Assembly (NCBI RefSeq): GCF_007744075.1
Contig: NZ_CP036266.1
Coordinates: 5,317,748 to 5,381,747, forward strand
From: Gimesia chilikensis
Lineage (GTDB): Bacteria; Planctomycetota; Planctomycetia; Planctomycetales; Planctomycetaceae
DNA length: 64,000 nt
Reading direction: 5' to 3'
Shown here: in pieces, positions 39,063 through 56,582 of the stretch
Layout of the letters: every line of letters begins with the position of its first letter
Numbering within the stretch: the stretch's first letter is position 1
Notes under the pieces: generated by a model
Database searches by the model: none
What the model saw: only the letters and a program-made list of their open reading frames with translations
What the model was told of the DNA's origin: nothing
Translations under genes and position numbers: made by a program

Positions 39063-39093
39063 AATTGAACACCCCCATTGATTCCTGATCCGA

Positions 39094-39118: not shown

Positions 39119-39143
39119 AATGCGCTATCTGAAAGGAGCTATT

Positions 39144-39327: not shown

Positions 39328-39337
39328 AAGTAGGATT

Positions 39338-39398: not shown

Positions 39399-39671
39399 GA
39401 TCTATTGGACTGAACCGCAGGGGCGTTTTCGACTATGGGGATTGAATGCCCGCAGGGTGAAAACAGCGTTCTGTTTTCTCTGCGATTGCGGGCATAATTG
39501 TCCGACGGGATCGTTCGCTCAAGTGTCGAGGCAGGCCGCTGTGGCGGGTTGTAATTGCCAAGACGGTTGTGCGGGGCGTCCCGGAGGCGGAATCCGTCAC
39601 CGGCGCAGACCCCGACCGGAACACTCTATAAAGGGAGATCAAAACGAGGGGCCGGTTCTCTTGCAGAAGAC

Positions 39672-40895
39672 TCATGAGGTATCACAGACCTCCCAGAGTT
39701 CGGAAGCCGGAAGCGAGGCACGAACCAAATATGGAGCAGGAAGTCGCTCCCAGCGGGAGTGCAATTCCTGCGACCTCTGGAGCGCGGCCTGTCCGCAGGA
39801 GGGACAGATGGCAGACGATTCCCCGGGAACCGGAGACGCTGCCCGAGGACGTTTTTCGCTCAGAGGCCCCGCTCCTTCCAGCAGTCCGCGGCACAGCGCG
39901 ATCTTCTCTGCCCGGAAGCGATTGGCCAGAAAGCCATAATGCCGAATCCGCATCAGCCCATCTGGAAGCACATGCTGCAGGAACCTGCGGAGAAACTCCG
40001 TGGCGGCGAGCGTCATGGTCCGCTTCCGACTGCCTTGGGCGTAGTCTTTATAGCGGAACGTGACCTGGCCGTCTGCGACGTTCAACAGCCGGCTGTTCGA
40101 GATCGCCACGCGGTGCGTGTAGCGTGCCAGGTATTTCAGTACCGACTCGGGGCCGCCGAAAGGCGGCCGGGCATACACGACCCATTCGGTCCGCACGGAC
40201 TGGTTGAGAAGACGCTTGAAGCCCTGGGGATCGGCGACGGAAGCCAGCCGCCCGGGGAATTCCAGTTTTCCCGCGACATACGTCTGCTTGAGCAGGTCCA
40301 GAAACTTGCCGCGAAACAGCCGGCTGAGTACGCGCACGGGCAGGAAGAAATCGGCCCGTCCCGCGACCCAGCGTGTGCGGTCGGGCGCCAGTCCGCCGGA
40401 AGGGACCACGCAATGCAGGTGGGGATGCGGCATCAGGGTCTGTCCCCAGGTATGCAGCACGGCCAGAAACCCGATTTCCGCCCCCAGGTGCCTGGGATCG
40501 GCGGCGACTTCCAGCAGCGTCTGGCTGGCCGCGCGGAACAGCATCCCGTACATCAGCCGCGGGTTGGCAAGTGTCAGATCCACCAGCACGTTCGGCAGTG
40601 TGAACACCACGTGGAAGTAGGGCACGGGCAACAGTTCGGTCGCCCGGCGCTGCATCCACTGCGCACAGGCGGACCCCTGACACTTGGGGCAGTGGCGATT
40701 CCGGCAGGAATTGTAACTGATCTGTCGATGGTCGCAGGAGCGGCACGTTTCTACATGCCCGCCCAGGACCGCAGTCCGGCAGTTCTGCAACGCCCGCATG
40801 ACGCGGCGCTGGGCAACGGACGTGGGATAGCGCTTCAGGTATTCCGCACCGTACTGCCGCACGACGTCAGCGAGTTCCCACCGGGGACGCGTCAT
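39672..40895 (-). CDS. IS91 family transposase
   Basis: 407 residues. The N-terminal zinc-binding region CRSCDHRQISYNSCRNRHCP leads into the Y-type transposase domain with the HUH metal motif HPHLHCVVPSGG and the tyrosine segment YLARYTHRVAISNSRL, then TFRYKDYAQGS. The C-terminus has a second CPSCG zinc element. These are hallmarks of IS91/ISCR rolling-circle transposases. It overlaps the upstream recombinase gene by 4 bases. Confidence 0.95.
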   Translation of the reverse strand: MTRPRWELADVVRQYGAEYLKRYPTSVAQRRVMRALQNCRTAVLGGHVETCRSCDHRQISYNSCRNRHCPKCQGSACAQWMQRRATELLPVPYFHVVFTLPNVLVDLTLANPRLMYGMLFRAASQTLLEVAADPRHLGAEIGFLAVLHTWGQTLMPHPHLHCVVPSGGLAPDRTRWVAGRADFFLPVRVLSRLFRGKFLDLLKQTYVAGKLEFPGRLASVADPQGFKRLLNQSVRTEWVVYARPPFGGPESVLKYLARYTHRVAISNSRLLNVADGQVTFRYKDYAQGSRKRTMTLAATEFLRRFLQHVLPDGLMRIRHYGFLANRFRAEKIALCRGLLEGAGPLSEKRPRAASPVPGESSAICPSCGQAALQRSQELHSRWERLPAPYLVRASLPASELWEVCDTS

Positions 40896-41764
40896 GAGTC
40901 CTCCTGTGGCGTGTCTGGCTGGTCTTGCTCATGGAGCAGTTCCAGGGGACTGCGGGTGCCGCCGATCAGGTGCTTGGAAACGTGCGTGTAGATCGAGGTG
41001 GTCCGCAGGCTGGCATGGCCCAGGAGTTCCTGGATGACCCGCAGTTCCGTGCCGGCTTCGAGTAGATGCGTGGCGAAACTGTGACGCAGCATGTGTGGCG
41101 TGACGGCTTTGTCCAGGCCGGCCTCACTACAGGCGTCCCGGCAGACCCGTTGCACCGACCCCACAGCGATCGGCTTGATCCGTGAGGGACCGAGAAACAG
41201 CCAGTCGGCCGGACGGGCGGCCCACCAGTAGTGCCGCAGCGTTTGCAGCAACAGGGGTGAGAGCAGTGTATAGCGATCTTTGTTTCCCTTGCCCTGCACG
41301 ATGCGGATCACCATCCGCTGGCTGTCAATGTCGCACACCCGCAGACGCACTGCCTCGGAAATCCGCAATCCCGACGCGTAGGCCGTCATCAGGATGGTGC
41401 GGTGCTTGAAGGAGTGCACCGCCTGAAAGAAGCGACGGACCTCGTCAAGACTCAGCACTTCCGGTAAATGCCGTTCGGGCCGGGGGCAGCGAATGTCCTG
41501 CACGATCTCGCCGCGCTGAAGTGTATTCCGATACAGAAACCGCAGTGCCGCCAGTGCCTGATTGTAGGTTCCCCAGGCGACTTGCCGGTCCTGGACCAGA
41601 TACAGCAGATAAGTCCGGATGGCCTCCGGTCCCAGGACTTCCGGGCTTTTACCGAAGTGCCGGGCAAAGCGGGACACGTTGTTGACGTAAAGCTTGATCG
41701 TTTTCGGGGACAGGTTCCGCAGTTCCATGTCCTCGATCATGCGCTGCCGCAGTGGAGTCATCAC
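40892..41764 (-). CDS. XerD-like tyrosine recombinase of the IS91 element
   Basis: 290 residues. The N-terminal SAM-like domain (LRNLSPKTIKLYVNNVSRFA) is followed by the catalytic domain: ASGLRISEAVRLRVCDID (Arg), GKGNKDRYTLLSP (Lys), TPHMLRHSFATHLLEAG (HxxR), LLGHASLRTTSIYTHV (His and Tyr). All catalytic residues are present. Such genes accompany one branch of IS91 elements and are translationally coupled to the transposase (ATGA overlap). Confidence 0.95.
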   Translation of the reverse strand: MMTPLRQRMIEDMELRNLSPKTIKLYVNNVSRFARHFGKSPEVLGPEAIRTYLLYLVQDRQVAWGTYNQALAALRFLYRNTLQRGEIVQDIRCPRPERHLPEVLSLDEVRRFFQAVHSFKHRTILMTAYASGLRISEAVRLRVCDIDSQRMVIRIVQGKGNKDRYTLLSPLLLQTLRHYWWAARPADWLFLGPSRIKPIAVGSVQRVCRDACSEAGLDKAVTPHMLRHSFATHLLEAGTELRVIQELLGHASLRTTSIYTHVSKHLIGGTRSPLELLHEQDQPDTPQEDS

Positions 41765-42091
41765 TGGACCTTTCGTGAAACAGAGATTTCAGAGACCGGG
41801 AAGGTACTGAAACTATGCCTCACAAATGGCGGAAGCGCAAATCGGAATATTCGGAACAGTCCGTACAGACGGACCGGGGTGCTACGTGTACTTTGCAGTC
41901 CGGTGGGACGAGCCCTCAGCGGAGGGATCAATCACAGTTGCCGATCCCAGGCCTACCGCGAAGCGGTTTAGTTCAATAAACAGGGAATACTTAGCTATTG
42001 AAATCGTTGAGCTGCTCTGTATCGGCAGTGTGCTTGATTGACGATGGAGTTTATGCCCTGATAAAAAGTCCCTTCGACAGAAAGGAGAACA
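41765..42091. other. IS91 right end and junction, no gene
   Basis: Contains a small hairpin GTCCG...CGGAC near 41860 and no convincing gene. Short open stretches here lack ribosome binding sites and motifs. The drop in GC near 41960 is my estimate of the element edge. Confidence 0.45.
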
Positions 42092-42403
42092 ATGATACAG
42101 AAACAAGATTTCATGTTGATCCGAGCGGCCCTGCAGTTCTGGTACGAATAGATGGATCTCAAGGACGCAGACGTGTTCGCGATCTATTCAGGTGGCCGCA
42201 GAATCAAGCCATCCTGGCAATAAGAAGATATTCAACAACTTCGCCAGCAGTTGCTGGCAGCACGGCTGCGCTATGCTGTGTCCCATCCTGACGCAGCCAG
42301 CGTAAAGACTCCCCGTCCCTTTACCTCTCCGGAGGCTGCCAGACAGGCGATGGCAGACGCGTCTGACCGCCTGGGAGTCGTTCAGGTCGCCCCAGCGGTC
42401 TGA
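42092..42403 (+). pseudogene. Small gene interrupted by two in-frame stops
   Basis: ATG 42092 follows an excellent ribosome binding site (AGAAAGGAG). One frame runs 104 codons to TGA 42401 with TAG at 42149 and TAA at 42221. The text reads QKQDFMLIRAALQFWYE, stop, DLKDADVFAIYSGGRRIKPSWQ, stop, then a helical EDIQQLRQQLLAARLRYAV and an acidic-to-neutral tail (EAARQAMADASDRLGVVQV). Continuity of the protein-like sequence across both stops indicates a broken gene. Family not recognised. Confidence 0.65.
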
Positions 42404-42409
42404 GCTCCC

Positions 42410-42606
42410 TCAAATCCCTTCCATCCGTTCGGCTAGGCTGATCTCAAGTGTCTTTGCGATCCGCTCAATATTTCGCAGGGACAGTTTCTCTCCCCCCGTT
42501 CGATCCCGCCGAAGTAGGTCCGGTCCAGCTCACATACGCAAGCAAAATTCTCCTGCGAGTAACCTTGCTCTTTGCGCAGTTCACGGACCCGCTGTCCAAA
42601 TCTCAC
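42410..42606 (-). pseudogene. XRE-type helix-turn-helix regulator, frameshifted
   Basis: From GTG 42606 (ribosome binding site GGAGG) the frame reads [20 protein letters not shown] and [16 protein letters not shown], the Xre/SinR helix-turn-helix. After ERN the frame is lost. One base further the text continues as [19 protein letters not shown] and ends at 42410, exactly the expected C-terminus of such regulators. A one-base deletion near 42485 explains it. The intact form would be a DNA-binding repressor of about 65 residues. Confidence 0.8.
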
Positions 42607-42707
42607 CAGGAGAGTCCTCCAGGATTCAGTGGGAATGCAGCAGAACAAGCAGTCCCCAAGCAAACGTAAAAACAAAATATTTCAGCTAGATAAGATTGGT
42701 AGGTTTT

Positions 42708-43451
42708 ATGCACGAAGAAAATAACAAAACAATGGAAAGTCCCCAGAGCCAGTGGTGGCTGGCAAAGAATGGTGTGGCTGAAGGTCCTCTATCTCACCAG
42801 CAAATTAGAGATTCCTTATAGTCAAACAAAATCAGTCTGGCTGATTATGTTTACTCATCAGATTCGAAAGAATGGAAGCCACTGTCTGACTGGAATAACT
42901 TCGAGCCTGATACTGTAGATGCCGCTCTGCAATCTCCTCCAGCTCCCCCTCTGGAGAGCTATCCCACCGACCCTCTGATCACGAATCCCAGGCTGCCCAC
43001 CATGGCAAACTGGATCTGTATCTACACTCTCCTGGTGTCTCCCTGGTTATGGTGGTTCTATGTAGTATCAGCTCTGACTAGTGGTCTCACGTTTGTAGAA
43101 AACGCTCCCCTGGCGGGCGTGGATGCACTAGTAATGTTCGTCGATATGCTCACATCACTGATTATCACCGTTGCCCTGTTCATCGGTGGGATGCGACTTC
43201 GAGCATTACGTCGTTCAGGAACTACGATCATTATTCTCAGTATCGTCGTGGCCGTTGCGGTCCAGGTTCTGATGCTTTTCGGGGTGATGCTACTTCTCGC
43301 CATGTCTGATCCGATTCACTATGCCACTAAAACAGTGGCAGTCGAATTGATCGATTTCTTAGCTGTGATTGTCGGGTTGTGTGAAGCAGCCTTTATGGTC
43401 ACTGCACTTCTCTGGCTGCGACGCAATGAACGGTCTCTCCCCTTAACCTGA
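42708..43451 (+). pseudogene. GYF_2/DUF4339-like membrane protein with internal amber codon
   Basis: A single frame runs from ATG 42708 to TGA 43451 except for TAG at 42819. The first part, WWLAKNGVAEGPLSHQQIRD, then stop, then SLADYVYSSDSKEWKPLSDW, is one GYF_2 (DUF4339) domain cut in the middle. From codon 99 on, four hydrophobic helices follow (NWICIYTLLVSPWLWWFYVV and later). The downstream part from ATG 43002 could still be made as a 149-residue membrane protein. Either the gene is dead or the amber is read through. Confidence 0.7.
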
Positions 43452-43514
43452 GTAAGCGGTACAAACAGGACAGAGAATTATGTTGTTTCAATCTGGTAAC
43501 AAAGAAAGGCTCTT

Positions 43515-44060
43515 ATGAGTGATAATATGATTCCTGAAAACAGGAAAACCACTGAATGGCGGTTTGATGACCAGGGCCTGCTTGCAGGCCCTTACTCTTA
43601 TAACGAACTGATAGAATATGTTGAGTTGGATTACATCCAGCCTGATACGGAGATCATTCACGAGGACGGTCGGAAATATCAGGCATTTGAAATCGGATTA
43701 TTTCCCGGCTTTGTCCCTGTAATTCCAGAGCCTGCCGACGAGCACAAAAAAGTCCCCCCTTTGCCTGGCTGGAATTTTCTGGCGGGAGTGGCATTCTTGT
43801 CATGGATTACAGTCAACGCACTGGCGTTGATCCCAGGTGGTCACTGGTTCCACGGAGTGAAACCCTATTCGATGATCATTGGGGGCTGCGCTGTGCTATT
43901 GATTGGCTGTTACACGATGCTGACCGGAACAGCCCATGATTCCGGAGGGAACCCGGAACATAGACCGGTGGCCAACAGAATTGCAGGGCTGTTTGTAATT
44001 CTCATTGGTGTTTACCTGATCGGTGGTGGAGTCAGCTTCTTTATACCCGTAGGTAAATAA
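43515..44060 (+). CDS. GYF_2-like membrane protein
   Basis: 181 residues. The N-terminal EWRFDDQGLLAGPYSYNELI and DYIQPDTEIIHEDGRKYQ resemble the GYF_2/DUF4339 domain. The C-terminal half has three hydrophobic helices (LAGVAFLSWITVNALALIPG, YSMIIGGCAVLLIGCYTML, AGLFVILIGVYLIGGGVSFF). It is a same-strand neighbour of the interrupted GYF_2 gene and probably a paralogue. GYF_2 domains in bacteria are thought to be protein-interaction modules; no specific role is visible. Confidence 0.7.
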   Translation: MSDNMIPENRKTTEWRFDDQGLLAGPYSYNELIEYVELDYIQPDTEIIHEDGRKYQAFEIGLFPGFVPVIPEPADEHKKVPPLPGWNFLAGVAFLSWITVNALALIPGGHWFHGVKPYSMIIGGCAVLLIGCYTMLTGTAHDSGGNPEHRPVANRIAGLFVILIGVYLIGGGVSFFIPVGK

Positions 44061-44109
44061 CTGGAGCCGTTGCTCAGAGAGTCGCTTCGGCTATTTGTAT
44101 CCACCGAAC

Positions 44110-44138
44110 CTAAATTATGACGAAAAACGCGTCATAAT
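44110..44138 (+). promoter_or_regulatory. CTAAAT-N17-CATAAT element, copy 2
   Basis: CTAAAT 44110-44115, 17-base spacer ending AAAAACGCGT, CATAAT 44133-44138. Part of the spacer forms a small palindrome (TTATGACG and CGTCATAA). Located 50 bases after the GYF_2-like gene. Confidence 0.5.
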
Positions 44139-44244
44139 AGATGGAAGAAGAGAGAAAGAGCCAGGAGAAATAACAAGCTGGAAAAATTAGATATCAGGTA
44201 CGCGCGGTGATTCTTGCCACACTATTGGACGAGTCCCCATATCT

Positions 44245-44273
44245 TAATTTTGGCCTAAAACGTGTCATAATAC
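44245..44273 (+). promoter_or_regulatory. CTTAAT-N17-CATAAT element, copy 3, probable promoter of the ubiquitin-like operon
   Basis: CTTAAT 44245-44250, 17-base spacer TTTGGCCTAAAACGTGT, CATAAT 44268-44273. The TGT before CATAAT fits an extended -10. It lies upstream of the leader terminator and the first gene of the operon. Confidence 0.55.
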
Positions 44274-44335
44274 ATAGGGGATAGATTACCTATTGTACGA
44301 TGGTAGTCGATCTCCAAAACAAATTCATCGTCAGT

Positions 44336-44375
44336 AAAAACGCCCCGCATGCCACAGGAATGCGGGGCGTTTTGT
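44336..44375 (+). terminator. Leader terminator upstream of the ubiquitin-like operon
   Basis: AACGCCCCGCAT and ATGCGGGGCGTT arms with a GCCACAGGA loop, followed by TTTTGTGTTT. It lies between the probable promoter (44245) and the first ribosome binding site (44395), so it could act as an attenuator. It may alternatively close the transcript of the GYF_2-like gene. Confidence 0.85.
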
Positions 44376-44407
44376 GTTTACACATCCCCAATAGAAAGGA
44401 GCCTTGC

Positions 44408-44599
44408 TTGGAATACATGGTTTTAACGTTCGTCTCTGTCGCCCTGTTGCTGACTGTCGTCTCTTTCATCAAGGAACGGCGGTTGCGGCTGGCGCTGCAG
44501 GGAATTCTCAGACACCTGATTCAACGCTGGAGGGCACATGGAAAAACCGACTCTACCAATCACACTAACACTGATCCTGCTGACCGGAGCCGGATGTAG
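44408..44599 (+). CDS. Small membrane protein, probable TTG start
   Basis: 63 residues from TTG 44408, six bases after AAAGGAG; ATG 44417 in the same frame is an alternative. One N-terminal membrane helix (MVLTFVSVALLLTVVSFI) is followed by a basic region (KERRLRLALQ, RHLIQRWRAHGK). The end overlaps the next gene by 62 bases. First gene of the ubiquitin-like operon; no family recognised. Confidence 0.6.
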   Translation: MEYMVLTFVSVALLLTVVSFIKERRLRLALQGILRHLIQRWRAHGKTDSTNHTNTDPADRSRM

Positions 44600-45110
44600 T
44601 TCCGACGAAAACAGCCGTGTGGCCGAACTGGCCACGCGGCAATTGGAGCGCCAGGCCGAACAGAACCAACGGATGACGGAACTCCAGCAGGAAGTTGCCT
44701 CCGGATCACGGAAACTGGTAGAAGCAGACGCCAGATCCCGGCAGGAGCTGGTCTCGCTGCAGCGTGAGATGCATACCGAGCGAAACGATATCGGATACCA
44801 GCGGGACCAGCTGGAAGCGGAACGCCGTGAAATTGCTGACAGCAGAAATCGTGACCCGATCATTGCGGCGGCGATATCCAGGGTGACCATGGTGGTGGTT
44901 AGCCTGCTGCCCTTACTCATCTGCTGGTTGCTACTCAGTCAGAAAATCGAACCCGCAGACGAACAGCAAATGACAGAGCTGCTGCTGGAAGATCTGGTCT
45001 CAGTGGAACCCCGGCTGATGCCACCGGCCAACACAAATCCAGACAAACCGCGGTTGCCGGATTTCCCGCAGCCCCCCGATCCTGAAGATCCCACAGAAAG
45101 GAGCACATGA
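44538..45110 (+). CDS. Coiled-coil lipoprotein-like membrane protein
   Basis: 190 residues. The start has a lipoprotein-type signal (LPITLTLILLTGAGCSSDEN, lipobox TGAGC). A long charged coiled coil covers residues about 28-112, then one transmembrane helix (SRVTMVVVSLLPLLICWLLL, about 114-133) and an acidic, Pro-rich tail. An N-terminal lipid anchor, a coiled coil and a later membrane helix would place the coil outside and the acidic tail inside the cytoplasm. It may anchor the conjugation machinery to the membrane; that is inference from operon position. Confidence 0.75.
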   Translation: MEKPTLPITLTLILLTGAGCSSDENSRVAELATRQLERQAEQNQRMTELQQEVASGSRKLVEADARSRQELVSLQREMHTERNDIGYQRDQLEAERREIADSRNRDPIIAAAISRVTMVVVSLLPLLICWLLLSQKIEPADEQQMTELLLEDLVSVEPRLMPPANTNPDKPRLPDFPQPPDPEDPTERST

Positions 45111-45111
45111 T

Positions 45112-45480
45112 ATGTCACATATTGTCACGATTCAGACAGAGGTCCGCGACGCGGAAGCCCTAGGGCTGGCCTGCCGTCGTCTCGAACTGGGAGAGCCCGT
45201 TCATGAAACCGTCCCGCTGTTTAGTAGAGAAGTTACTGGTTACGCGGTCCGACTCCCCGACTGGCGGTATCCTGTCGTCTTTGACGTCGAACAGGGCCAG
45301 GTCCGCTACGACAACTTTGAAGGCCGCTGGGGTAGGCCGACTCACCTCAATCGTCTGCTGCAATCGTACTGCGTGGAAAAATGTCGTCTGGAAGCGCGCC
45401 GCAAGGGACATTCCGTCCTAGAAAACCGGCTCAGCGATGGTTCCATCAAACTCACTATTCAGATCGGAGAGGGCCAGTGA
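45112..45480 (+). CDS. DUF1257 (Ycf35-like) protein
   Basis: 122 residues. It begins SHIVTIQTEVRDAEALGLAC and contains DWRYPVVFDVEQGQVRYDNF, LNRLLQSYCVEKCRLEARRK and a final SDGSIKLTIQIGEG, the pattern of DUF1257/Ycf35 proteins (small plastid and cyanobacterial proteins of unknown function). The next gene (DUF2997) starts inside its stop codon (GTGA), and a Ycf46-like AAA+ ATPase follows two genes later. All three families are known from cyanobacteria, so their joint presence here looks like a functional unit. Confidence 0.88.
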   Translation: MSHIVTIQTEVRDAEALGLACRRLELGEPVHETVPLFSREVTGYAVRLPDWRYPVVFDVEQGQVRYDNFEGRWGRPTHLNRLLQSYCVEKCRLEARRKGHSVLENRLSDGSIKLTIQIGEGQ

Positions 45481-45671
45481 AAACCATTGAAATCATCATT
45501 TCAACCAACGGTCAGTCCCGGCTCGAAACCCGCGGCTTTACCGGTTCCCATTGTCGGGATGCCAGTCGGTTTCTGGAAGGAGCTTTGGGAAAAGTCTCCT
45601 CGGAACAGCTGACTGCCGAATACCACCAATCCATTCAACACCAACCCAACCAACTCAAACAGGAGAATTAG
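45477..45671 (+). CDS. DUF2997 protein
   Basis: 64 residues from GTG 45477, overlapping the DUF1257 stop. KTIEIIISTNGQSRLETRGF and GSHCRDASRFLEGALG are the DUF2997 signature (a short beta hairpin, then a CxxASxFLE helix). The C-terminal QHQPNQLKQEN tail is polar. DUF2997 and DUF1257 genes are often neighbours. Function unknown; small adaptor or substrate roles are possible. Confidence 0.88.
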   Translation: MKTIEIIISTNGQSRLETRGFTGSHCRDASRFLEGALGKVSSEQLTAEYHQSIQHQPNQLKQEN

Positions 45672-45730
45672 CTTTCAATTCACAACACATACAGGAATTA
45701 CCTGAACGAATTGACGAAGCCCCCTCACGG

Positions 45731-46336
45731 GTGCGTGTGCTGGTGGTCGTCGAAGGGACACACGACATCAAGTTCCTGAGACGCATCTCGGCACTCCTCC
45801 ATTCTGCGCATCCCGCACTGCCTGATCTGGCCGCAATGGAACGTAATAGAGAACTTATCTTCCTGCCGATCAGTGGACATCCTCAAGCTTGGATTAGACG
45901 ACTGTCGCCCCTCAATCTGCCAGAGTTTCATTTGTACGATCGCGAGCAGTCACCGGTTACGGAACAACGTCTGGAGACCGTCGACAGGATCAACCAACGC
46001 TCTCGTTGCCGCGGCATGTTGACGCAGAAACGGAGTCTGGAGAACTATCTGCATCCCCACTCGATTCAGGTTATCACTAATGTTCCACTGGAATTCGATG
46101 ACCATGCTTGTGTGGCAACTCTGGCAGCACAACAAGTTTTTGAGAGCAGTCATGGAAAATCCACCTGGCAACGGCTCACTCGTCGTGCTCGGGTGCGACT
46201 AACGAATCGGGCCAAGCACTGGCTCAACACCAGTGCCGTTGAGGAGATGACGGTTTCCCTGCTGCAGGAACGCGATCCAGACGGGGAAATCATCTTCTGG
46301 CTGGAGACGATCCGTCAACTGGCTGAGACCGCTTAA
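45731..46336 (+). CDS. TOPRIM-like (OLD-type) protein
   Basis: 201 residues from GTG 45731. It opens with the TOPRIM strand and metal Glu, RVLVVVEGTHDIKFLRRIS; LPEFHLYDREQSPVTEQR supplies the Asp-x-Glu-type second motif, and GMLTQKRSLENYLHPHSI matches the segment after the TOPRIM core in OLD family nucleases. There is no ATPase part, so it resembles the nuclease half of OLD/Gabija GajA-like proteins standing alone. The ribosome binding site AGGAG at 45661 has no usable start codon behind it in this frame; TTG 45551 would overlap DUF2997 by 121 bases. The start is therefore uncertain. Confidence 0.7.
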   Translation: MRVLVVVEGTHDIKFLRRISALLHSAHPALPDLAAMERNRELIFLPISGHPQAWIRRLSPLNLPEFHLYDREQSPVTEQRLETVDRINQRSRCRGMLTQKRSLENYLHPHSIQVITNVPLEFDDHACVATLAAQQVFESSHGKSTWQRLTRRARVRLTNRAKHWLNTSAVEEMTVSLLQERDPDGEIIFWLETIRQLAETA

Positions 46337-46380
46337 GCACACTTCACACACCTATTTCTTTCAACCTGAGAGGAACACTT

Positions 46381-47877
46381 ATGTTACTAACCGAACGACT
46401 AGCGGAGAACGTACGTGCCTGCTTTACCGGCATCTGGATTCAGAGCCACGAACATGACGAGGCGTTGTTGGAAATTACCCGACTCTGCCACAGTGAAGAC
46501 TGGGGCCTGCTCTCCTGGGACATTGACCGGGGGCTGCAGGGAACGCAAGCCATTGGAGAGAGTGATGCATCGTACCCTGATCCCCTGGCAGCCATACACA
46601 GTCTTAACAGCCAGGCCGATTCAGACCGGCCCACGCTGCTGGTCCTCAAGAATTTCCACCGGTTCATCAATTCCCCTGAAATCATCCAGGCCCTGACGCA
46701 ACAGATCGGTCTGGGAAAGCAGACCCGGGCCTTCGTGATCATTCTAGCCAGCCTGATCCAGATTCCCCCGGAACTGGAAAAACTGTTCGTCTGCCTGGAA
46801 CACGATCTTCCCGACCGGAGCCAGCTGGAGGAGATCGCTCGCAGCATTGCCACGGAACCCGGCGAATTGCCGGAGGGAATGGAACTGGAGCGTGTCTTGG
46901 ACGCCGCCTGTGGACTGACCCGCTATGAAGCAGAGGGAGCCTTTAGTCTCTCCCTGGTACGTCATGGACGCATCGACGTCTCCGTCGTATTGGAGCTGAA
47001 GGCCCAGACGCTGCTGAAAAGCGGGCTGTTAACGCTCCATAGCGGTTCTGAGTCATTTGACGACCTGGGCGGCCTGGAATCTTTAAAAGCCTTTTGCCGG
47101 CGTGCGCTGCGTCCCAGATCACAGGAATCATCCCATGTGCGTCCTCGGGGCGTTCTGCTGTTGGGAGTTCCCGGGACCGGGAAAAGTGCCTTCGCCAAAG
47201 CCCTGGGCAGGGAGACCGGACGGGCCACACTGACTCTTGACGTGGGAGCCCTGATGGGCGCGCTGGTCGGTCAGACAGAGGAGCGAACCAGACAGGCGCT
47301 CCGTATTGTCGATGCAATGCAACCAGCAGTCCTGTTTATCGATGAGGTCGAAAAGGGGCTGAGCGGGGCCACCTCGTCCGGACAGTCCGACAGCGGTGTT
47401 TCCACACGCATGCTGGGGACACTTTTAAGCTGGCTGAACGACCATACTTCAGACGTGTTCGTGGTCTGTACTGCCAACGACATTTCAAAACTTCCTCCCG
47501 AGCTGATCCGTGCCGAACGCTTTGACGGTCTCTTCTTTCTGGATCTGCCCGGAGATTCACAGAAGCAGGTGATCTGGAACATCTACCGGGAACAGTATGG
47601 ACTCACAGAGGAGCAGAAGTTGCCCGAAGACCGGCACTGGACCGGATCGGAGATCCGGGCCTGCTGCCGTCTGGCGGCCCTACTGGATGTCCCGTTAACC
47701 CAGGCTTCTGAAAACGTGGTGCCCGTGGCCGTCACAGCCGCAGAATCAGTGGCCCGACTCAGACGCTGGGCCAGCAACCGTTGCCTGTCTGCAGAGCAGC
47801 CAGGCGTCTTTGTTCACGGAGAGCGGTCGAAAGGCCGAGCGCAGCGCAAACTCTCCCGTGATCCCCGTAGAAACTAA
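46381..47877 (+). CDS. Ycf46-like AAA+ ATPase
   Basis: 498 residues. The N-terminal about 210 residues are a degenerate regulatory domain as in Ycf46 (YPDPLAAIHSLNSQ, RPTLLVLKNFHRFINSPEII, ASLIQIPPELEKLFVCLEHD). The AAA+ module has Walker A LGVPGTGKSAF (about 261-271), Walker B AVLFIDEVE (about 316-324), sensor-1 VFVVCTANDISKLPPEL and arginine-finger-like IRAERFDGLFFLDLP, then a small helical lid. All ATPase residues are present. As in CDC48/FtsH-type remodelling enzymes, it could unfold or extract tagged proteins. A clear ribosome binding site (GAGAGGAAC) precedes ATG 46381. Confidence 0.9.
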   Translation: MLLTERLAENVRACFTGIWIQSHEHDEALLEITRLCHSEDWGLLSWDIDRGLQGTQAIGESDASYPDPLAAIHSLNSQADSDRPTLLVLKNFHRFINSPEIIQALTQQIGLGKQTRAFVIILASLIQIPPELEKLFVCLEHDLPDRSQLEEIARSIATEPGELPEGMELERVLDAACGLTRYEAEGAFSLSLVRHGRIDVSVVLELKAQTLLKSGLLTLHSGSESFDDLGGLESLKAFCRRALRPRSQESSHVRPRGVLLLGVPGTGKSAFAKALGRETGRATLTLDVGALMGALVGQTEERTRQALRIVDAMQPAVLFIDEVEKGLSGATSSGQSDSGVSTRMLGTLLSWLNDHTSDVFVVCTANDISKLPPELIRAERFDGLFFLDLPGDSQKQVIWNIYREQYGLTEEQKLPEDRHWTGSEIRACCRLAALLDVPLTQASENVVPVAVTAAESVARLRRWASNRCLSAEQPGVFVHGERSKGRAQRKLSRDPRRN

Positions 47878-47908
47878 ACCTGACTCTTATCAAGGAGTAA
47901 CAATCACT

Positions 47909-48847
47909 ATGGCTACAATAGAAGAAGAAGTGGAAACCCGCCACGATCCGATCGACTTACTCAGGGCGACGATGTGTGCGACGCGGGTCAGTTTTGAATG
48001 GTTCGGTACCCGGAAGTCGCTCACACGTGACCAGAAGGCCCAGGCCGCCGAATCGTTTGGGGCGGAAGGGGAGTTCCTGAGTGCCGGTAAGAAGCTGCTG
48101 GATACGGGACATCCCCGTTTTCGAGCCGTGAGTGCGGTTCGTAACCAGGTGCGGAAATACTGGACCTCGGTCAGTCTCCCTTTCCCGGAACCGGGTATCC
48201 GCTTATTGCGGCAGGATGCGCTAACCGCGTTTCAGAATCAGATGCACCAGTTTACGGAAGAACTGGCCGACTCGGTTGCGGAACTGGATGAACAATACCT
48301 GTCCTTGAAATCGGCGGCCCGGGAGCGTCTGGGAAGTCTGTTCAATGACGATGATTACCCCACAACGCTGGTCGGGCTATTCGAAGTGACCTGGGAGTTC
48401 CCCAGTATCGAACCGCCGAATTATCTCAGACAGCTCAATCCCGAACTCTACGAACAGGAGTGCCAGCGAGTGCAGTCGCGATTTGAGGAGGCGGTCAGGT
48501 TGGCGGAAGACGCTTTTCTGGATGAACTGTCTAAACTGGTGTCGCATCTCACGGATCGTTTGAGTGGACAGGCCGATGGCCGTCCCAAGGTCTTCCGGGA
48601 TTCGGCCATCGGGAACCTGCACGAGTTCTTTGAACGCTTCCGGTCGCTGAATGTCCGCTCCAACGAACAGTTGGATGCGCTTGTCTCCCAGTGCCAGCAC
48701 ATTGTGGAGGGAATTCAACCCCAAGAACTGAGGAAGCGGGACGCCCTCCGGCAGCAGGTGGCTTCCGATCTGTCGGGCGTCCAGGCCGCCCTGGATGGTC
48801 TGCTGGTCGACCGGCCGCGGCGTCAGATCATACGAACTCCGAAGTAA
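47909..48847 (+). CDS. DUF3150-like protein
   Basis: 312 residues from ATG 47909 (AAGGAG upstream), helical and probably cytoplasmic. It contains FEWFGTRKSLTRDQKAQAAE, EFLSAGKKLLDTGHPRFRAV and long helices with LVSHLTDRLSGQADGRPKVF. The pattern of an early tryptophan/lysine-rich segment followed by GKKLID resembles DUF3150, a family seen near phage and plasmid genes; this is recollection, not a search result. It follows the AAA+ gene by 31 bases and is followed after 9 bases by the next small gene. Confidence 0.6.
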   Translation: MATIEEEVETRHDPIDLLRATMCATRVSFEWFGTRKSLTRDQKAQAAESFGAEGEFLSAGKKLLDTGHPRFRAVSAVRNQVRKYWTSVSLPFPEPGIRLLRQDALTAFQNQMHQFTEELADSVAELDEQYLSLKSAARERLGSLFNDDDYPTTLVGLFEVTWEFPSIEPPNYLRQLNPELYEQECQRVQSRFEEAVRLAEDAFLDELSKLVSHLTDRLSGQADGRPKVFRDSAIGNLHEFFERFRSLNVRSNEQLDALVSQCQHIVEGIQPQELRKRDALRQQVASDLSGVQAALDGLLVDRPRRQIIRTPK

Positions 48848-48856
48848 GGAGGTCTC

Positions 48857-49102
48857 ATGCAACTCATTATCACACCTGAGGGACAAGTCCGCTGCATTTA
48901 CGCGGAAGCCATTGTACTGGCCACCATCGGTCGACTGCAGATCTCACGCGGCTCGTTTGTTGAACCGAATGCGGCTGGTCAATGGATCGTGGATCTGTCC
49001 CCCGTAAGGGGGCCACGGCTGGGGCCGTTCGCACAGCGGAGTGCGGCCCTGCAGTCAGAAATCGACTGGCTGGAACTGCACTGGCTTTCTTCCGACCACT
49101 GA
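48857..49102 (+). CDS. Small conserved-looking operon protein
   Basis: 81 residues with an excellent ribosome binding site (AAGGAGG). The fold appears mostly beta: LIITPEGQVRCIYAEAIVLA, ISRGSFVEPNAAGQWIVDLS, GPRLGPFAQRSAALQSEIDW. The end WLELHWL is aromatic. I do not recognise a named family. It is followed by an intrinsic terminator. Confidence 0.65.
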   Translation: MQLIITPEGQVRCIYAEAIVLATIGRLQISRGSFVEPNAAGQWIVDLSPVRGPRLGPFAQRSAALQSEIDWLELHWLSSDH

Positions 49103-49124
49103 GAATGGAATGTACCCACACCGT

Positions 49125-49168
49125 GCCCCGGTCTTGCAGAATTGTCTCTGCAGGGCCGGGGCTTTTTT
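49125..49168 (+). terminator. Internal rho-independent terminator
   Basis: GCCCCGG...TGCAGA pairs with TCTGCA...CCGGGGC around an ATTGTC loop, followed by six T. It lies between two same-strand genes of the operon. Confidence 0.9.
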
Positions 49169-49197
49169 ATTGAACCCTTGTAATTAGGAAACGACAG

Positions 49198-49413
49198 ATG
49201 AAACAGACAGACTTGAATCGGGCTGTCGCCCTGGCCACCGGCGAGACAATCGCCACCGTCAAACGCCTGGGCTTTTTATTAGCGGAGCCCCAGGAAACCG
49301 TTGATCCGGATTCGGAGATGTCGGGCCCACTGGTGATCGACTGGGACGAACTGGACAACCTGCGAATGGCTCCACAGACAGAGGGATTGAATCATGTTCC
49401 TTCATGGGTGTGA
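49198..49413 (+). CDS. Small operon protein with HTH-like N-terminus
   Basis: 71 residues. The N-terminal QTDLNRAVALATGETIATVK followed by RLGFLLAEP looks like a short helix-turn-helix-type segment. The rest is acidic (ETVDPDSEMSGPLVIDWDEL). A ribosome binding site AGGAAACGA lies before ATG 49198. Family not recognised. Confidence 0.6.
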   Translation: MKQTDLNRAVALATGETIATVKRLGFLLAEPQETVDPDSEMSGPLVIDWDELDNLRMAPQTEGLNHVPSWV

Positions 49414-49567
49414 TTCCGATCTCAAGGGATTTCACTGTCTCAGTCAGGCAGATGCTCCCTTCCACTCAAATCGACTGCAGTTGCTCCGTAGTGGGCGGCA
49501 ACGGGGACGACGCGCCGTTAAAAGTCAACGTCGAAAAAGGCGTCGCAAACGAAAGTTGCTTGGTTAA
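49394..49567 (+). CDS. Short Arg/Lys-rich protein
   Basis: 57 residues, ATG 49394 to TAA 49565, overlapping the end of the preceding gene by 20 bases. The start [20 protein letters not shown] is Cys/His-containing and the end [11 protein letters not shown] is extremely basic (about 17 Arg/Lys in the last 26 residues). The reading frame fits the gap between two genes of the operon. It might be a nucleic-acid-binding or ribosome-associated peptide. It is too short for firm support. Confidence 0.4.
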
Positions 49568-49614
49568 AGCATTACTCCTTTTACATCTCCAATTCAATTC
49601 CAGAAAGGAATGCT

Positions 49615-49839
49615 ATGAAAGTTTTATTGATCAACAACGATGGTGGTGGATTTGCGGACTACATCGAAGTCGCCACGGGGACCACGGTCTCTCAATTGTT
49701 CGAACAACGCATGGCGAATGCGAACGCCTCGGATTACCTGATCCGGGTCAATCGCCAACCCTGTCCTCCCGATCAGACGTTACAGGACGGGGACCGGATT
49801 TCGATCACTCCGACAAAAATCGAAGGTGCGAAAAGCTAG
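49615..49839 (+). CDS. Ubiquitin-like (beta-grasp) protein of the conjugation operon
   Basis: 74 residues, preceded by AGAAAGGAAT. The predicted order is strand-strand-helix-strand-strand as in ThiS/MoaD/ubiquitin: [19 protein letters not shown], then a helix ([15 protein letters not shown]), then [20 protein letters not shown] and DRISITPTK. The [13 protein letters not shown] end is the typical ThiS/MoaD-like last strand. The C-terminus is KIEGAKS, so there is no double glycine; a single Gly could be exposed by JAB trimming of AKS. Its E2, JAB and E1 partners follow immediately. I infer that it is the modifier of this system. Confidence 0.75.
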
Positions 49840-49869
49840 CCTTTGTTGAAGTGAATTATATTGTCTCTG

Positions 49870-49907
49870 ACAGGCTGCCGGGATCTTCGTCCCGGCAGCC
49901 TGTTTTC
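49870..49907 (+). terminator. Internal rho-independent terminator between Ubl and E2 genes
   Basis: ACAGGCTGCCGGGA and TCCCGGCAGCCTGT form a perfect 14-bp stem with a TCTTCG loop, followed by TTTCT. It lies directly upstream of the E2-like gene's ribosome binding site. Confidence 0.9.
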
Positions 49908-49928
49908 TATTAACAGGAGTGAACGACT

Positions 49929-50945
49929 ATGAATCAGAGTCCGAAAACGGTCTGGCGGATGGCCAGTCTCGTTGAGCAACAACTCAGCTCACTGGGCAGT
50001 GATACATACACCGGGCTGCCAGAAGCGGCCTGGTTAAGCTGTCTGCGGTTGATCCGCAGGCGACAGCAGGCTCAGGAACGAGGTTGGTTTCGTGCGGCCA
50101 CCAAGCTGGAGCGAGAACTTACCAGAGAGGTGTTTCAGCTGACGCGGCAACTGATGACGTTGCAGCAGGAACTGGAATCAGCTACTGATGCAAATCCTGT
50201 CTCTGCAATACGCACCATCTACGAAGACCTGCTGGCTCTGGAAGAGGAGTTCGGTGATTACAGCATTGACCTGAAGAACAAGACGATTTCGGTGGTCACA
50301 GAGCCAATTGTGCTGGAAGGTGTCTATCTGGGGGCGTTTGAGATTCGGCTGGAGTTTACGGACCTGAATTCAGACTCGCCCTTTCACTACCAGGTATTTG
50401 CTCAAGACCCGCAGTCGCCGATCACCGATGATGCAGTCACGCATCCGCACGTGCAGTCTGACAACGTCTGTGAAGGAGACGCCCGTATGCCCATCAGACG
50501 CGCACTGGAACAGGGACGACTGCTGGATTTTTTCGTGCTGGTGTCCCGTCTGTTACGCACCTACAACCCGGAAAGTCCCTATGTCGCCCTCAGCGACTGG
50601 CACAGTGCAGAATGCAGTGATTGTGCGGATGTCGTGACCACCGATGAGCAGACTCACTGCACCAGTTGCGAAAACCGCTTGTGTCGGCAATGTGCGAATA
50701 GCTGTACCGACTGTAGTTCCTCATTTTGCCACGACTGTGCGACTCGCTGTGAAATCTGCCGTGATGACTGTTGTGAATCTTGCCTGAAAGAGTGCGCGCT
50801 CTGTGGTTCCAACTGTTGTTCAAATTGCCTCGATAATGAAGAAAGGTGCCCGATCTGTGAAACACAGGAAGACGAAGAAACATACGAGCCGGACCAGGAA
50901 ACCATATCGCCGGAGACGGTCCCCCCTGCCGGCGATCCGCTTTAG
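49929..50945 (+). CDS. E2-like conjugating enzyme fused to a RING/treble-clef-like Cys-rich domain
   Basis: 338 residues, ribosome binding site ACAGGAGTG. Residues about 1-95 are helical. Residues about 95-225 read like a ubiquitin-conjugating (E2) fold: strands [20 protein letters not shown] and [11 protein letters not shown], then [13 protein letters not shown] with His172-Pro-His in the place of the eukaryotic HPN and Cys181 at the active-site position, then [20 protein letters not shown]. Residues 229-310 carry 22 cysteines, including ten CxxC pairs at 7-15 residue spacing, as in tandem binuclear treble-clef/RING zinc domains. It would thus join E2 and E3-like functions in one chain. The tail is acidic. 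Fold assignments are by pattern, not by search. Confidence 0.8.
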
Positions 50946-51525
50946 CCCAACCGCCTGGGCCAAACTGCTGTTCCTACGTGATTATGGTGATACGGAAGTT
51001 GGCGGCTTTGGAATCGCAGCCTCGACGGATTTGCTGCTGGTCCAGGACCTGCAACTCGTGAAACAGACCTGCTCGCTGGTCCATGTTGCCTTCGATGATG
51101 AAGCGGTGGCGAATTTCTTTGACGATCAGGTGGATGCTGGACTCCGCCCGGAGCAGTTTGGTCGGATCTGGATCCACACCCATCCGGGAGCCTGTCCGGA
51201 ACCCAGCCCCACTGATGAGGCGACGTTTGAACGTGTCTTCGGTCGATCCGACTGGGCCGTGATGTTCATTCTGGCTCGACAGGGTCGGTCCTATGCGCGA
51301 TTGCGGATGAATACCGGCCCCACGTTTGAGTGTGAGATCCCGGTCAGGCGGGAATATTCAGAACCTTTCCCGGGCTGTCAACCCGAAAACTGGGAAGAGG
51401 AATATTTAACGAACGTGCATCCCGAACAACTCCAACCTGGCAGGCGGTTATCGGCGTTCGACGGTTTTGACTGCAATGCGGATTGGTTTTTCAATGAATC
51501 TAATGTGGAAGGAGACTTGAAGTGA
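50836..51525 (+). CDS. JAB/JAMM metalloprotease (Mov34/MPN/PAD-1 family)
   Basis: 229 residues if it starts at ATG 50836, which overlaps the E2 gene by 110 bases (a start near [10 protein letters not shown] would avoid this). A basic N-terminus ([20 protein letters not shown]) precedes the JAB domain: Glu54 in DTEVGGFG, then [19 protein letters not shown] with the full H-x-H-x7-S-x2-D zinc motif (His114, His116, Ser124, Asp127). All catalytic residues are present. Its family removes or trims ubiquitin-like proteins. The next gene starts in its stop codon (GTGA). Confidence 0.92.
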
Positions 51526-52181
51526 CAAATACAACGATAGATCGTTTTCAGAGGCAAAGTAGTCTGGTACCCGCTGAACGGCTTTCACAGATTTCGGTGA
51601 CTGTCATCGGTGTGGGAGCCATCGGACGACAGGTGGCCCTACAGCTGACGGCGATCGGGATACCGCGGATTCAGCTTGTTGATTTTGATTTGGTCGAATT
51701 GACCAATATCACGACACAGGGATATCGGAGACAGGATCTGGGGTTAGCTAAAGTCGAAGCAACAACTCAGGCGATCCTGGAGCTCGATGTTTCGGTTCAG
51801 GTGGAGATGATTTCAGATCGGTTTCGTGCATCCATTAGTACAGGAGAGGCTGTCTTCTGCTGTGTGGATTCCATCTCGGCCCGTGCGGCGATCTGGCGAT
51901 CCATCAGCAGAAAATGTGAGTTCTGGACAGATGGAAGGATGCTGGGAGAAACGATCCGGGTGCTGACTGCCACAAAGGATTCAGGAATAAATCAGTATTC
52001 AGAGACTCTCTTTCCTCAAGCCCAGGCACAAATAGGAAGTTGTACCTCACGAAGTACTGTGTATGCAGCCAGCATTGCAGGGGGATTCATGGTGCATCAG
52101 TTTTGTCGCTGGCTGCGTGGGATATCCATAGATCACGATATTTCTCTAAATCTATTGGCAGGCGAAACTGTAGTTAGCTGA
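51522..52181 (+). CDS. ThiF/E1-like adenylyltransferase
   Basis: 219 residues from GTG 51522. The ATP-binding Rossmann motif [15 protein letters not shown] (Gly30, 32, 35) is followed by [15 protein letters not shown] (Asp54, Asp56, Asn62), [12 protein letters not shown] (Arg, Lys77), the second Asp ([10 protein letters not shown]) and [15 protein letters not shown] with Cys174 as candidate thioester cysteine. This matches the E1-like ThiF proteins that accompany JAB and Ub-like genes. It would adenylate the Ubl C-terminus and pass it on to Cys181 of the E2-like protein. Last gene of the operon; a terminator follows. Confidence 0.92.
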
Positions 52182-52234
52182 CCACTTGCTATTCGATATT
52201 ATCCATCGTCGTTAAAAAGGAATACCTAGAACAG

Positions 52235-52272
52235 GCAGGCCACCTTAGCTGGTGGTCTGCTTCCATTTTTTT
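52235..52272 (+). terminator. Terminator closing the ubiquitin-like operon
   Basis: GCAGGCCACC and GGTGGTCTGC arms with a TTAGCT loop, followed by TTCCATTTTTTT, about 55 bases after the E1-like stop. Confidence 0.85.
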
Positions 52273-52700
52273 ATCTATCAGAAAATTCAGAATATGTTTT
52301 GTGTCAGAACGAAGAAATAGGCCTTGTAATTTTAGTCTTCTCTATCCATTTAATTCGTAACTCTCTAACTATCCAATAATTGAAACTGGACTTCAAAAGT
52401 GGAGTCCTCGGCATCGTTTGAATTGCATTGTGCTTGAATCATGAAACTCGAGCAGCGTCATAAGCTTCAGGATCCAGTTAAGCCTGTAGCTTATTTTGAC
52501 CCGACGTAGTCAGAAATAATTCTGACGATGATACACATCCTTCTGGCTACAGATAAGGTACAGAAAAAGTTGCCACCTTTGAACCACTGAAGGTCTTTTC
52601 AACAAAGAGTTATAGATAGTTTAATTCAAAGTGCTCAAGAGTCTGTCGGCAGGTAACGACATCCTACTTCTATTTATGATTGGATAACTATCTGGTACTT
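52273..52700. other. AT-rich intergenic region without gene
   Basis: About 430 bases with no open frame of interest on either strand. It separates the ubiquitin-like operon from the toxin/immunity region. Confidence 0.6.
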
Positions 52701-53042
52701 CTAGTTGTATTCATCAGTAGTTTGCTGGGCTAATTCAACTCGTCGTGAATGGTCTTTATCAGCAATTAATTCTTTTATACCAACGCATACTGCAGTCCAA
52801 CCGTACCGATTTGTGTAATCTTTTTTAAATTCATCTGATGATTGAAGATAGCGATGCCATTTTTCTAAATCGTACCCAAAATCTTCCCCCGTCAATTCTT
52901 GAAGATAATGCAATGCTCTTCTCATAGCATCAATTCGATCTTCTTCCTTAGCTATGTCGCTTGGCACCCCGCAAAGTGCACCTCCCAAATTCAAGACGTA
53001 CATTTGCAAACTTCTCATTCGACCAAGACCATATGTCCTCAT
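52701..53042 (-). CDS. Putative immunity-type protein, paralogue 1
   Basis: 113 residues, acidic and helical. The core RIDAMRRALHYLQELTGEDF continues GYDLEKWHRYLQSSDEFKK and ends RRVELAQQTTDEYN. It shares RVNSMRR/RIDAMRR, TGxDFGYDLExWH, SSDEF, YT, and VELAQ with the gene at 54.0-54.3 kb, so the two are paralogues. Small acidic proteins in multiple copies beside Rhs toxin genes are often immunity proteins. GAGGTAGAAG lies before the start. The family name is not known to me. Confidence 0.65.
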   Translation of the reverse strand: MRTYGLGRMRSLQMYVLNLGGALCGVPSDIAKEEDRIDAMRRALHYLQELTGEDFGYDLEKWHRYLQSSDEFKKDYTNRYGWTAVCVGIKELIADKDHSRRVELAQQTTDEYN

Positions 53043-53999: not shown

Positions 54000-54347
54000 T
54001 CAAGAGATGTTCTCATCCTCATCCAATTTCTGGGCTAGCTCAACTAGTTGTAATCGTTCTGGGTTATCAATTAATTCATTCACGTTTTTAAATACTGCAT
54101 CCCAAGCGATAGCGCAAGTATATTCCGCGCTGAATTCATCTGAAGACTCTAGAAAATGATGCCATTCTTCTAAATCGTAACCAAAGTCTCGTCCAGTTCT
54201 GTTTTTCAGTTTACTTAGGGTTCGTCTCATTGAGTTCACTCGGTCCTGCACCTGCCCTTCATTCTGAAATGGGCTTAAATCAGCACCACCTAGTCGTAAT
54301 AGTTGCGATTGCAACGGCGTCAGTTGCCCATATCTCGGTATTGTCAT
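54000..54347 (-). CDS. Putative immunity-type protein, paralogue 2
   Basis: 115 residues with ribosome binding site AGAGGAT before ATG 54347. RVNSMRRTLSKLKNRTGRDF is followed by GYDLEEWHHFLESSDEFSAE and the end LQLVELAQKLDEDEN. It is homologous over its whole length to the gene at 52.7 kb. It lies between IS fragments, so the original toxin neighbour may be lost. The paralogy is clear; the immunity role is inferred from context. Confidence 0.65.
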   Translation of the reverse strand: MTIPRYGQLTPLQSQLLRLGGADLSPFQNEGQVQDRVNSMRRTLSKLKNRTGRDFGYDLEEWHHFLESSDEFSAEYTCAIAWDAVFKNVNELIDNPERLQLVELAQKLDEDENIS

Positions 54348-56546: not shown

Positions 56547-56582
56547 TGAAGTTCCCCAGAAATAGTGGGCGCTGGGTTTAGG

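Follow-up and report, generated by a model that had tools for sequence, protein, structure and literature searches.

A predicted ubiquitin-like conjugation cassette carried by an integrating element at a tRNA-Ser gene of Gimesia chilikensis

Few ubiquitin-like (Ubl) conjugation systems of bacteria have been characterized. In a stretch of 64,000 nucleotides from the planctomycete Gimesia chilikensis (contig NZ_CP036266.1, positions 5,317,748 to 5,381,747; hereafter the window, from whose first letter positions are counted), twelve consecutive genes on the + strand (44538-52181) encode, in this order, a putative lipoprotein (LP), a DUF1257 protein, a DUF2997 protein, a TOPRIM-like protein, an AAA+ ATPase, a helical protein (CC), two small proteins of 81 and 71 amino acids (aa) (S81 and S71), a Ubl, an E2-like protein, a JAB metallopeptidase and an E1-like enzyme. 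The operon is the cargo of a ~16.7-kb element integrated at a tRNA-Ser gene (~35552-52287). Judged by its anatomy, the assignment of the last four genes as a putative conjugation core (the Ub core) is well supported, and we consider it probable that the element carries a complete cassette for Ubl conjugation and deconjugation, which serves in the conflict among mobile elements, phages and the host. The system is complete, small, conserved and mobile, it is present in six diverged copies in the genome carrying the window (G000), and it has viral kin with tandem Ubl precursors; as a compact experimental model, it may help to decide whether ubiquitin-style tagging is employed by viruses and mobile elements against one another. 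An original prediction, made from the letters of the window, had already named most of these genes; the placement as element cargo at tRNA-Ser, the make-up from two modules, the occurrence of the core in viral contigs and a hairpin between Ubl and E2 go beyond it.

The ubiquitin-like core

The Ubl gene (49615-49839; + strand, like all twelve genes) encodes a protein of 74 aa, which matches the ThiS family of Pfam (28.0 bits at a cut-off of 22.5) and ends in ...KIEGA-KS. An end of the form (I/V)(E/D)G(A/G/S) is found by pattern in 109 of 110 Ubl sequences (IEGA in 102, IEGG in three, IDGA in two, VEGA and IDGS in one each), and the 110th (L131) shows IEGA by eye. Between 0 and 48 residues follow this motif, 14 of the 109 proteins being tailless. 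An invariant Gly-(Ala/Gly/Ser) ahead of a variable tail fits a processed Ubl precursor, and the protease that cuts off the tail would be the JAB metallopeptidase of the same operon (50836-51525; start uncertain, overlapping the E2 gene). This protein carries the motif HTHP..S..D and matches Prok-JAB (PF14464) at E 0.0019; H-x-H-P...S-x2-D is retained in 96 of 98 sequences. The E1-like enzyme (51522-52181), 219 aa long, is of the ThiF type (PF00899, E 1.8e-24), with a GVGAIG stretch and a G-x-CT cysteine, and its best matches are ThiF/MoeB models and PaaA; GxGxxG is present in 87 and the CT cysteine in 83 of 91 sequences.

The E2-like protein (49929-50945; 338 residues) combines a helical N-terminus, a Ubc domain (residues ~95-225) with the putative active site HPH174...C181-EG, and a tandem CxxC array of zinc-finger type (229-310), as assigned from a structure model, motif and alignment. 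The AlphaFold model has a mean pLDDT of 77.5, with ten-residue means of 71-92 for residues 91-160, 43-68 for 161-180, 77-90 for 181-210 and 55-58 for 211-230. Each of the 50 Foldseek matches listed (the best 50 of the 365 with E<=10) is an E2 or an E2 complex, the best one with a probability of 0.98 and E 0.026, in agreement with the prediction that residues 95-225 adopt an E2 fold. HPH...C-x-G is retained in 104 of 106 E2s, the two exceptions being cut fragments, and both hallmarks of the E2/UBC superfamily, the UBC fold (in the model) and the motif HP(N/H)...Cys, are present. With the ThiS and ThiF matches and the JAB motif, the intact set of Ubl, E2, JAB and E1 that had been predicted is thereby borne out. 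The Cys-rich array has no Pfam match, and its profile obtained weak matches in the PDB (a Midline-1 chain, E 9.3e-4; TRAF3, 0.027; a FYVE-domain protein, 0.032), which make it RING-like at most. Since the E2 keeps the eukaryotic order HP(H/N)...C and has its own zinc-type array, it bears on the origin of E2-E3 pairs. The conserved C-terminal tail of the E2 (QP..VG...PA) was considered as a functional motif and rejected: it reads as the shadow of the overlapping JAB frame, and an in-frame TAG precedes it in the window copy.

In the mapped set of 30 loci (the window and 29 loci fetched for holding the E2, every locus thus being E2-selected), the order Ubl-E2-JAB-E1 is kept throughout (30/30, with partial matches for JAB in L045 and for E1 in L052), AAA-CC-S81-S71-core occur in order in 23 loci, and all twelve genes in 12, including four of the six G000 copies. 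S71 (49198-49413; no Pfam match) is found in all 30 loci, in three of which (L051-L053) it sits 3' of E1; S81 is present in 24, CC (window included) and the AAA+ ATPase in 23 each, DUF2997 in 22, DUF1257 in 21, LP in 17 and the TOPRIM-like gene in 15. G000 and its relative G001 each hold the E2 protein at six places, and an E2 match was obtained in 17 of the 59 genomes searched, G000 included. The ratio of nonsynonymous to synonymous substitution rates (dN/dS), calculated for 11 window genes against three copies (DUF2997 was left out), ranges from 0.04 to 0.35 in 32 of 33 comparisons; that of E2 with L033 is saturated. Conservation in the mapped loci and these ratios argue that the operon is neither a chance array nor a relic. 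A control search over 11 loci gave two weak matches, for the TOPRIM-like protein (1.5e-4) and E1 (1.6e-5), both in L159.

A second set comprises the best 80 of 129 loci from a profile search for Ubl relatives. Among the 60 loci with at least 4 kb downstream, E2, JAB and E1 are all shown in 52, or in 54 when L090 and L092, whose E2 segment begins before the Ubl match, are counted, so the expectation that the core genes travel together held. By a count of titles, 75 of the 80 named loci carry Planctomycetota labels; a spread to other phyla via loci of Emcibacter, Chloroflexota, SAR324 and an Actinomycetes metagenome-assembled genome was dropped as proof, as the contigs may be misbinned.

A check of open reading frames (ORFs) placed all genes named in the original prediction on the + strand where it had put them; three further conserved genes, those of CC (312 aa, 47909-48847), S81 (48857-49102) and S71, had gone unlisted. 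The junctions, described there as tight or overlapping, are not so throughout: two hairpins of 16 pairs each interrupt the operon, one terminator-like with a T run between S81 and S71, where the AAA module and the Ub core adjoin (49125-49162, + strand), the other attenuator-like with a T-rich tail between Ubl and E2 (49869-49904, + strand). The latter recurs in 24 of 30 copies, often with different letters, where 0.45 are expected from shuffles; under the same strict test the former is present in 8 of 24, with 0.2 expected (these hairpin controls are mononucleotide shuffles, and the copies compared are kin). Terminator-like sites overall (7 against 8.0 in shuffles) and promoter sites in the window (5 against 4.7) are not enriched, and both 16-pair hairpins still stand out. 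The hairpin 3' of the Ubl gene would allow the Ubl to be produced in excess over the enzymes.

Divergence along the operon is uneven. In L032, L056, L059 and L037, the TOPRIM-like and E1 genes are 52-69% identical to those of the window (the 52% refers to a partial protein of L037), in contrast to 93-96% for the adjoining AAA and CC genes. Such strong divergence in otherwise near-identical copies suggests exchange or diversifying pressure, and the copies with diverged TOPRIM-like and E1 genes (window 45551-46336 and 51522-52181) are, by this sequence comparison, apparent mosaic cassettes. In one G000 copy (L031, 2113-5453), ~3 kb of DNA interrupts the DUF1257 gene and contains a second DUF1257, 57% identical.

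The integrating element and its two modules

The left integration site is a tRNA-Ser (GGA) gene on the + strand (35464-35551; ARAGORN). Three relatives (G005, G010 and G013) share the tRNA flank up to 35551-35555 and continue with other DNA, and the G001 locus aligns to window positions 35544-52287 in a single 16.8-kb block of 91% identity that stops there. Directly inside the element lie a tyrosine integrase (35608-37029, + strand; phrog_1, E 1.5e-37 over 35665-37026), whose start is uncertain (called at a TTG at 35608, with an ATG further in), and a large serine recombinase of 654 aa (37098-39062, + strand; phrog_95 integrase, E 1.8e-18). The serine recombinase shares 75% identity with one located 5' of the L060 operon; members of its cluster are present in 24 of the 80 Ubl loci, and one of three recombinase clusters is within 10 kb in 27 of the 80. 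On the - strand (39672-41764), ORFs for a transposase-like and a tyrosine-recombinase-like protein follow, IS91-like by reading; the G001 element contains this pair as well, and G005 has it at another place.

The right end, given by the end of the G001 alignment, is marked by a terminator hairpin and the letters ...CTATCAG (52233-52287, + strand). CTATCAG occurs at most 140 bases after E1 in 9 of 30 mapped copies, window included, and seven of these nine diverge from the window right after the motif (by eye); it is missing from the other 21, so the right end differs among copies. One sister copy in G000 shares 245 further bases with the window. A BLAST search of the tRNA end against the window gave no long direct repeat at both element ends, which have just short TATCA-like letters in common. 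The features that define an integrative element are nevertheless there: an integrase, an attachment site, defined ends and relatives whose tRNA-Ser lacks the block. Taken together, the tRNA-Ser flank, the recombinases, the G001 alignment and the sites occupied otherwise in relatives make the Ub operon the end cargo of an integrating element. The mobile island of the original prediction is hence real and larger than the 44245-52272 proposed.

The part of the operon ahead of the core begins with LP (44538-45110), a coiled-coil membrane protein with a Cys20 that is conserved in the alignment after an N-terminal hydrophobic stretch. The lipoprotein label that it had received agrees with the conserved Cys, less so with a loose lipobox and a second hydrophobic segment (~116-134); recruitment of the system to the membrane by a predicted lipoprotein is plausible. 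The DUF1257 protein (45112-45480; PF06868) scores 16.1 bits at a cut-off of 22.2, and every one of the 11 aligned members has a match at E<=0.1, the best being 4.4e-6; the DUF2997 protein (45477-45671, GTG start; PF11211) matches at E 5.2e-16. The TOPRIM-like gene (45641-46336, start uncertain) is conserved and has no Pfam match, its name coming from a motif reading of the alignment (EG..D ... DRE). The AAA+ ATPase (46381-47877; 498 aa), presumably Ycf46-like, matches PF00004 (E 9.7e-28) and, over nearly its full length, phrog_8638 (E 3.1e-84); an active AAA domain spans residues ~222-438, the N-terminal part has no Pfam AAA match, and the NCBIfam models nearest to the AAA domain are those of CDC48 and the proteasome-activating ATPases. 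CC, its partner in 23 of the 30 mapped loci, is modelled as helical with low confidence (mean pLDDT 66), and S81 has no match in Pfam or NCBIfam.

This AAA module and the Ub core are separable. The AAA gene is present in 22 and absent in 23 of the 45 Ubl loci whose upstream sequence extends to 7 kb or more. In a survey of 392 planctomycetotal genomes, in which the best five candidates per genome were scored, so that the counts are lower bounds (G000 shows five of its six E2 copies there), the CC profile was found in at least 27 genomes (at least 56 places) and the E2 profile in at least 14 (at least 23 places); of the CC places, at least 15 have an E2 within 4 kb, coordinates being matched by eye. 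Conversely, 21 CC loci picked for the absence of E2 (L169, L176-L195) gave no match to Ubl, E2, JAB or E1 at E<=1e-3, while S81 is present in all 21 and the AAA gene in 19; G000 itself holds one such Ub-less AAA/CC locus. The idea of the AAA+ ATPase as a part of one inseparable system that acts on tagged proteins, to which the original prediction had pointed, is not supported in that form. The link between AAA and core is real but loose: an action on tagged proteins is possible, and the AAA+ ATPase may cooperate with the core.

AAA-CC-S81 without the Ub core is an undescribed module in its own right. A family of 283-502 aa without known match lies downstream in 11 of the 21 Ub-less loci, and in three there is a family whose one examined member is a PD-(D/E)XK nuclease; the 283-502-aa protein had been taken by eye for a DNA sliding clamp, an idea rejected as three members had no meaningful Pfam match. 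Six loci without the AAA gene (L102, L107, L111, L115, L126 and L135), four of them labelled Phycisphaerae or Phycisphaerales, share another upstream family, whose examined member (L107) has a weak HSP90/MutL-like ATPase match; this HSP90-like family is perhaps an alternative ATPase partner of the core. Two small membrane-type proteins precede the operon in the window (43002-44060), one with a weak GYF_2 match, and in L176 the Ub-less AAA module likewise follows a GYF_2 protein.

Viral relatives and known systems

The order Ubl, E2, JAB and E1 is also found in four IMG/VR contigs, near genes of replication and repair type such as SbcC. The viral E2s retain HP(H/N)...C (HPN in L196). In L198 and L199, two of the Ubl repeats encoded by the Ubl gene are strong and a third is doubtful; the units end in V(E/Q)GA, and the L199 protein stops exactly there. 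A second, more diverged set of E2- and E1-like genes is found in L198 (4288-7230) and L199 (4020-7220), with an ORF between them that is JAB-like by reading, so that each phage may possibly encode two conjugation systems; L199 has an extra ORF of 68 aa that looks beta-grasp-like by eye. A distant CC next to an ATPase-like gene is found in two further IMG/VR contigs. A tree of JAB and E1, for which L198 was chosen as root, shows the AAA-bearing loci dispersed among its tips and long branches for L196 and L197. A direction of transfer between phage and chromosome was considered and dropped, because the root was a viral sequence by choice.

The nearest known kinds are Bil, Bub, the FtsH-containing ternary systems of Kaur et al. 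and operon type 6d. Bil (BilABCD) is a four-part antiphage operon of Ubl, E2, JAB-type protease and E1; BilA has two Ubl domains, BilB a CEHH motif and BilD one inactive and one active adenylation domain (PMC11354881). In contrast, the window has a single-domain Ubl of 74 aa, HPH before the Cys, a single E1 of 219 aa, an E2 that bears a zinc-type array, and an AAA module, which place the operon outside Bil. Bub resembles the core as a predicted bacterial Ubl conjugation system, for which phage protection was not yet demonstrated according to PMC13373217; the solved BubCD of Citrobacter is a chain of 458 residues, and the window E1 matches it at E 0.001, behind PaaA, UBA5 and ThiF. The FtsH ternary systems likewise occur in planctomycetes and comprise a complete Ubl conjugation set with JAB, E1 and a RING-type part, linked to an AAA+ ATPase with an inactive N-terminal half; they also have a MoxR, a vWA, a fusion of EAD1, Ubl and E2, a RING part on a protein of its own and a caspase-like effector (Kaur et al. 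2020, PMC7159879). None of these was found in the operon by Pfam, Ubl and E2 are separate, and the E2 is instead fused to a zinc-type array, so that the operon does not belong there either. Operon type 6d shares a separate small Ubl, JAB, E1-like and E2-like proteins and a helical protein; its E2 has no upstream histidine and one downstream (Iyer 2006, PMC1779556). The window E2, in contrast, has HPH before the cysteine. Models of PRTRC, which we take to be type 6d, gave no match for the window Ubl, E2 and JAB, and the E1 hits PRTRC_ThiF at 33 bits of 144.75 required, outside that class. The pair of DUF1257 and DUF2997 is shared with a cyanobacterial cluster DUF2997-DUF1257(ycf35)-ferredoxin, whose description in the passage concerned names no Ubl gene (PMC4284462); in the window, the pair precedes an AAA+ ATPase. 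Among 14 control genomes, DUF2997 was found in Synechococcus elongatus only. A literature search over titles and abstract beginnings found no paper on the gene set; Burroughs et al. 2011, which lies outside the comparison, may contain it.

Possible mechanism and competing readings

From this anatomy, we infer a course of conjugation as follows: JAB would trim the short variable tail of the Ubl, exposing ...IEG(A); the small E1 would adenylate the Ubl C-terminus with ATP and hold the Ubl on its CT cysteine; and the E2 would receive it on Cys181 of the HPH...C site and transfer it to a target. The zinc-finger-type array of the E2 may act as a built-in E3 or as a substrate dock, and JAB may also be able to take the tag off. 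AAA+ ATPase, CC, DUF1257, DUF2997 and S81 would form a machine of their own, exchangeable and driven by ATP, which may remodel assemblies of DNA and protein or of phages and which the element couples to the core. The whole would most likely serve in the conflict among mobile element, phage and host, either as defence or to exclude competitors. Mobility, copy number, patchiness and phage-like relatives point to such a role; the case for defence is circumstantial.

Several observations weigh against this interpretation. The E2 model has a pTM of 0.47 and low confidence near the active site (161-180), no Foldseek match reaches E<=0.001, and the protein has no Pfam match. The Ubl ends in Gly-Ala instead of Gly-Gly in 105 of 109 sequences (Gly-Gly in three, Gly-Ser in one), and its search against solved structures gave no match; JAB, despite its full motif, scores 18.5 bits for Prok-JAB, under the cut-off of 25; and 6 of the 60 Ubl loci lack one or more core genes. 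As to defence, the E2 occurs in a small minority of the planctomycetotal genomes surveyed (the at least 14 of 392), and no PADLOC or NCBIfam model identifies the system, PADLOC giving partial similarities (IetA, JAB, E1-E2) and NCBIfam none above cut-off. Of nine neighbouring proteins, chosen partly by look from 30 large ORFs among 954, five match PADLOC models at E<=1e-10, one of which is a plain defence gene (Cas3), the rest belonging to candidate systems or being generic helicases or enzymes.

The ThiS and ThiF/MoeB affinities, together with ThiS-type carriers with JAB in biosynthetic operons, as reported by Iyer 2006 (PMC1779556), would also suit a sulfur-carrier pathway, in which the E1 adenylates the Ubl to yield a thiocarboxylate, JAB releases products and the E2-like protein is a scaffold. 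This is very unlikely: the near-invariant HPH...C site of the E2s speaks against such a pathway, tandem Ubl precursors fit a released modifier better, and genes for rhodanese, thiamine or molybdenum functions did not come to notice near the fetched loci, although no search was aimed at them. The picture of the original prediction, a small bacterial Cdc48-like pathway in which the AAA+ ATPase singles out Ubl-tagged proteins for unfolding or extraction, appears rather unlikely. It agrees with the ordered AAA-CC-S81-S71 genes ahead of the core in 23 mapped loci and with the CDC48 and proteasome-activating ATPases as nearest relatives of the AAA domain, and it is at odds with the frequency at which AAA/CC module and core occur each without the other and with the terminator-like hairpin between them in the window. 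Somewhat more weight, though still on the doubtful side, may be given to housekeeping of the element itself, in which the system regulates how its own element is excised, replicated or held at a given copy number, or keeps related elements out, and does not protect against phages. The position of the operon between the recombinases and the right end, the six diverged copies in one genome and the recombinase clusters near 27 of the 80 Ubl loci would be expected then; the core in phage-like contigs would not, and coexistence of copies means that simple exclusion is incomplete.

A further alternative is counter-defence of phage origin, the cassette stemming from phage genes for the tagging of host or competitor proteins and having been retained by the element for that use. 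The complete core beside phage-type replication genes in the four IMG/VR contigs, two of which have a terminase match, the SbcC-like neighbour and the long viral branches of the JAB and E1 tree (except for the pair L198/L199, used as root) fit this idea. We regard it as unlikely, since just four viral contigs were found, the terminase models also match 11 and 6 of 14 cellular control genomes, the root of the tree is viral by choice, and a search of plasmid and phage records gave no homologue of the window E2. Tentatively, and with a little more confidence than in any of these four alternatives, the conflict reading may be extended: phages and bacterial integrative elements would share and trade a true ubiquitin-style cassette, with polyubiquitin-like tandem precursors in the viral forms; tagging by its fused E2-zinc-array enzyme would be their weapon or shield, and planctomycetes would have coupled a separate AAA+ machine to it.

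To the right of the element, the window encodes two small proteins related to each other, one protein whose C-terminal domain contains Cys, and YD-repeat-like proteins, and it holds genes resembling insertion sequences (52701-53042, 54000-54347 and 55760-62105); by reading, this region looks like a polymorphic-toxin region.

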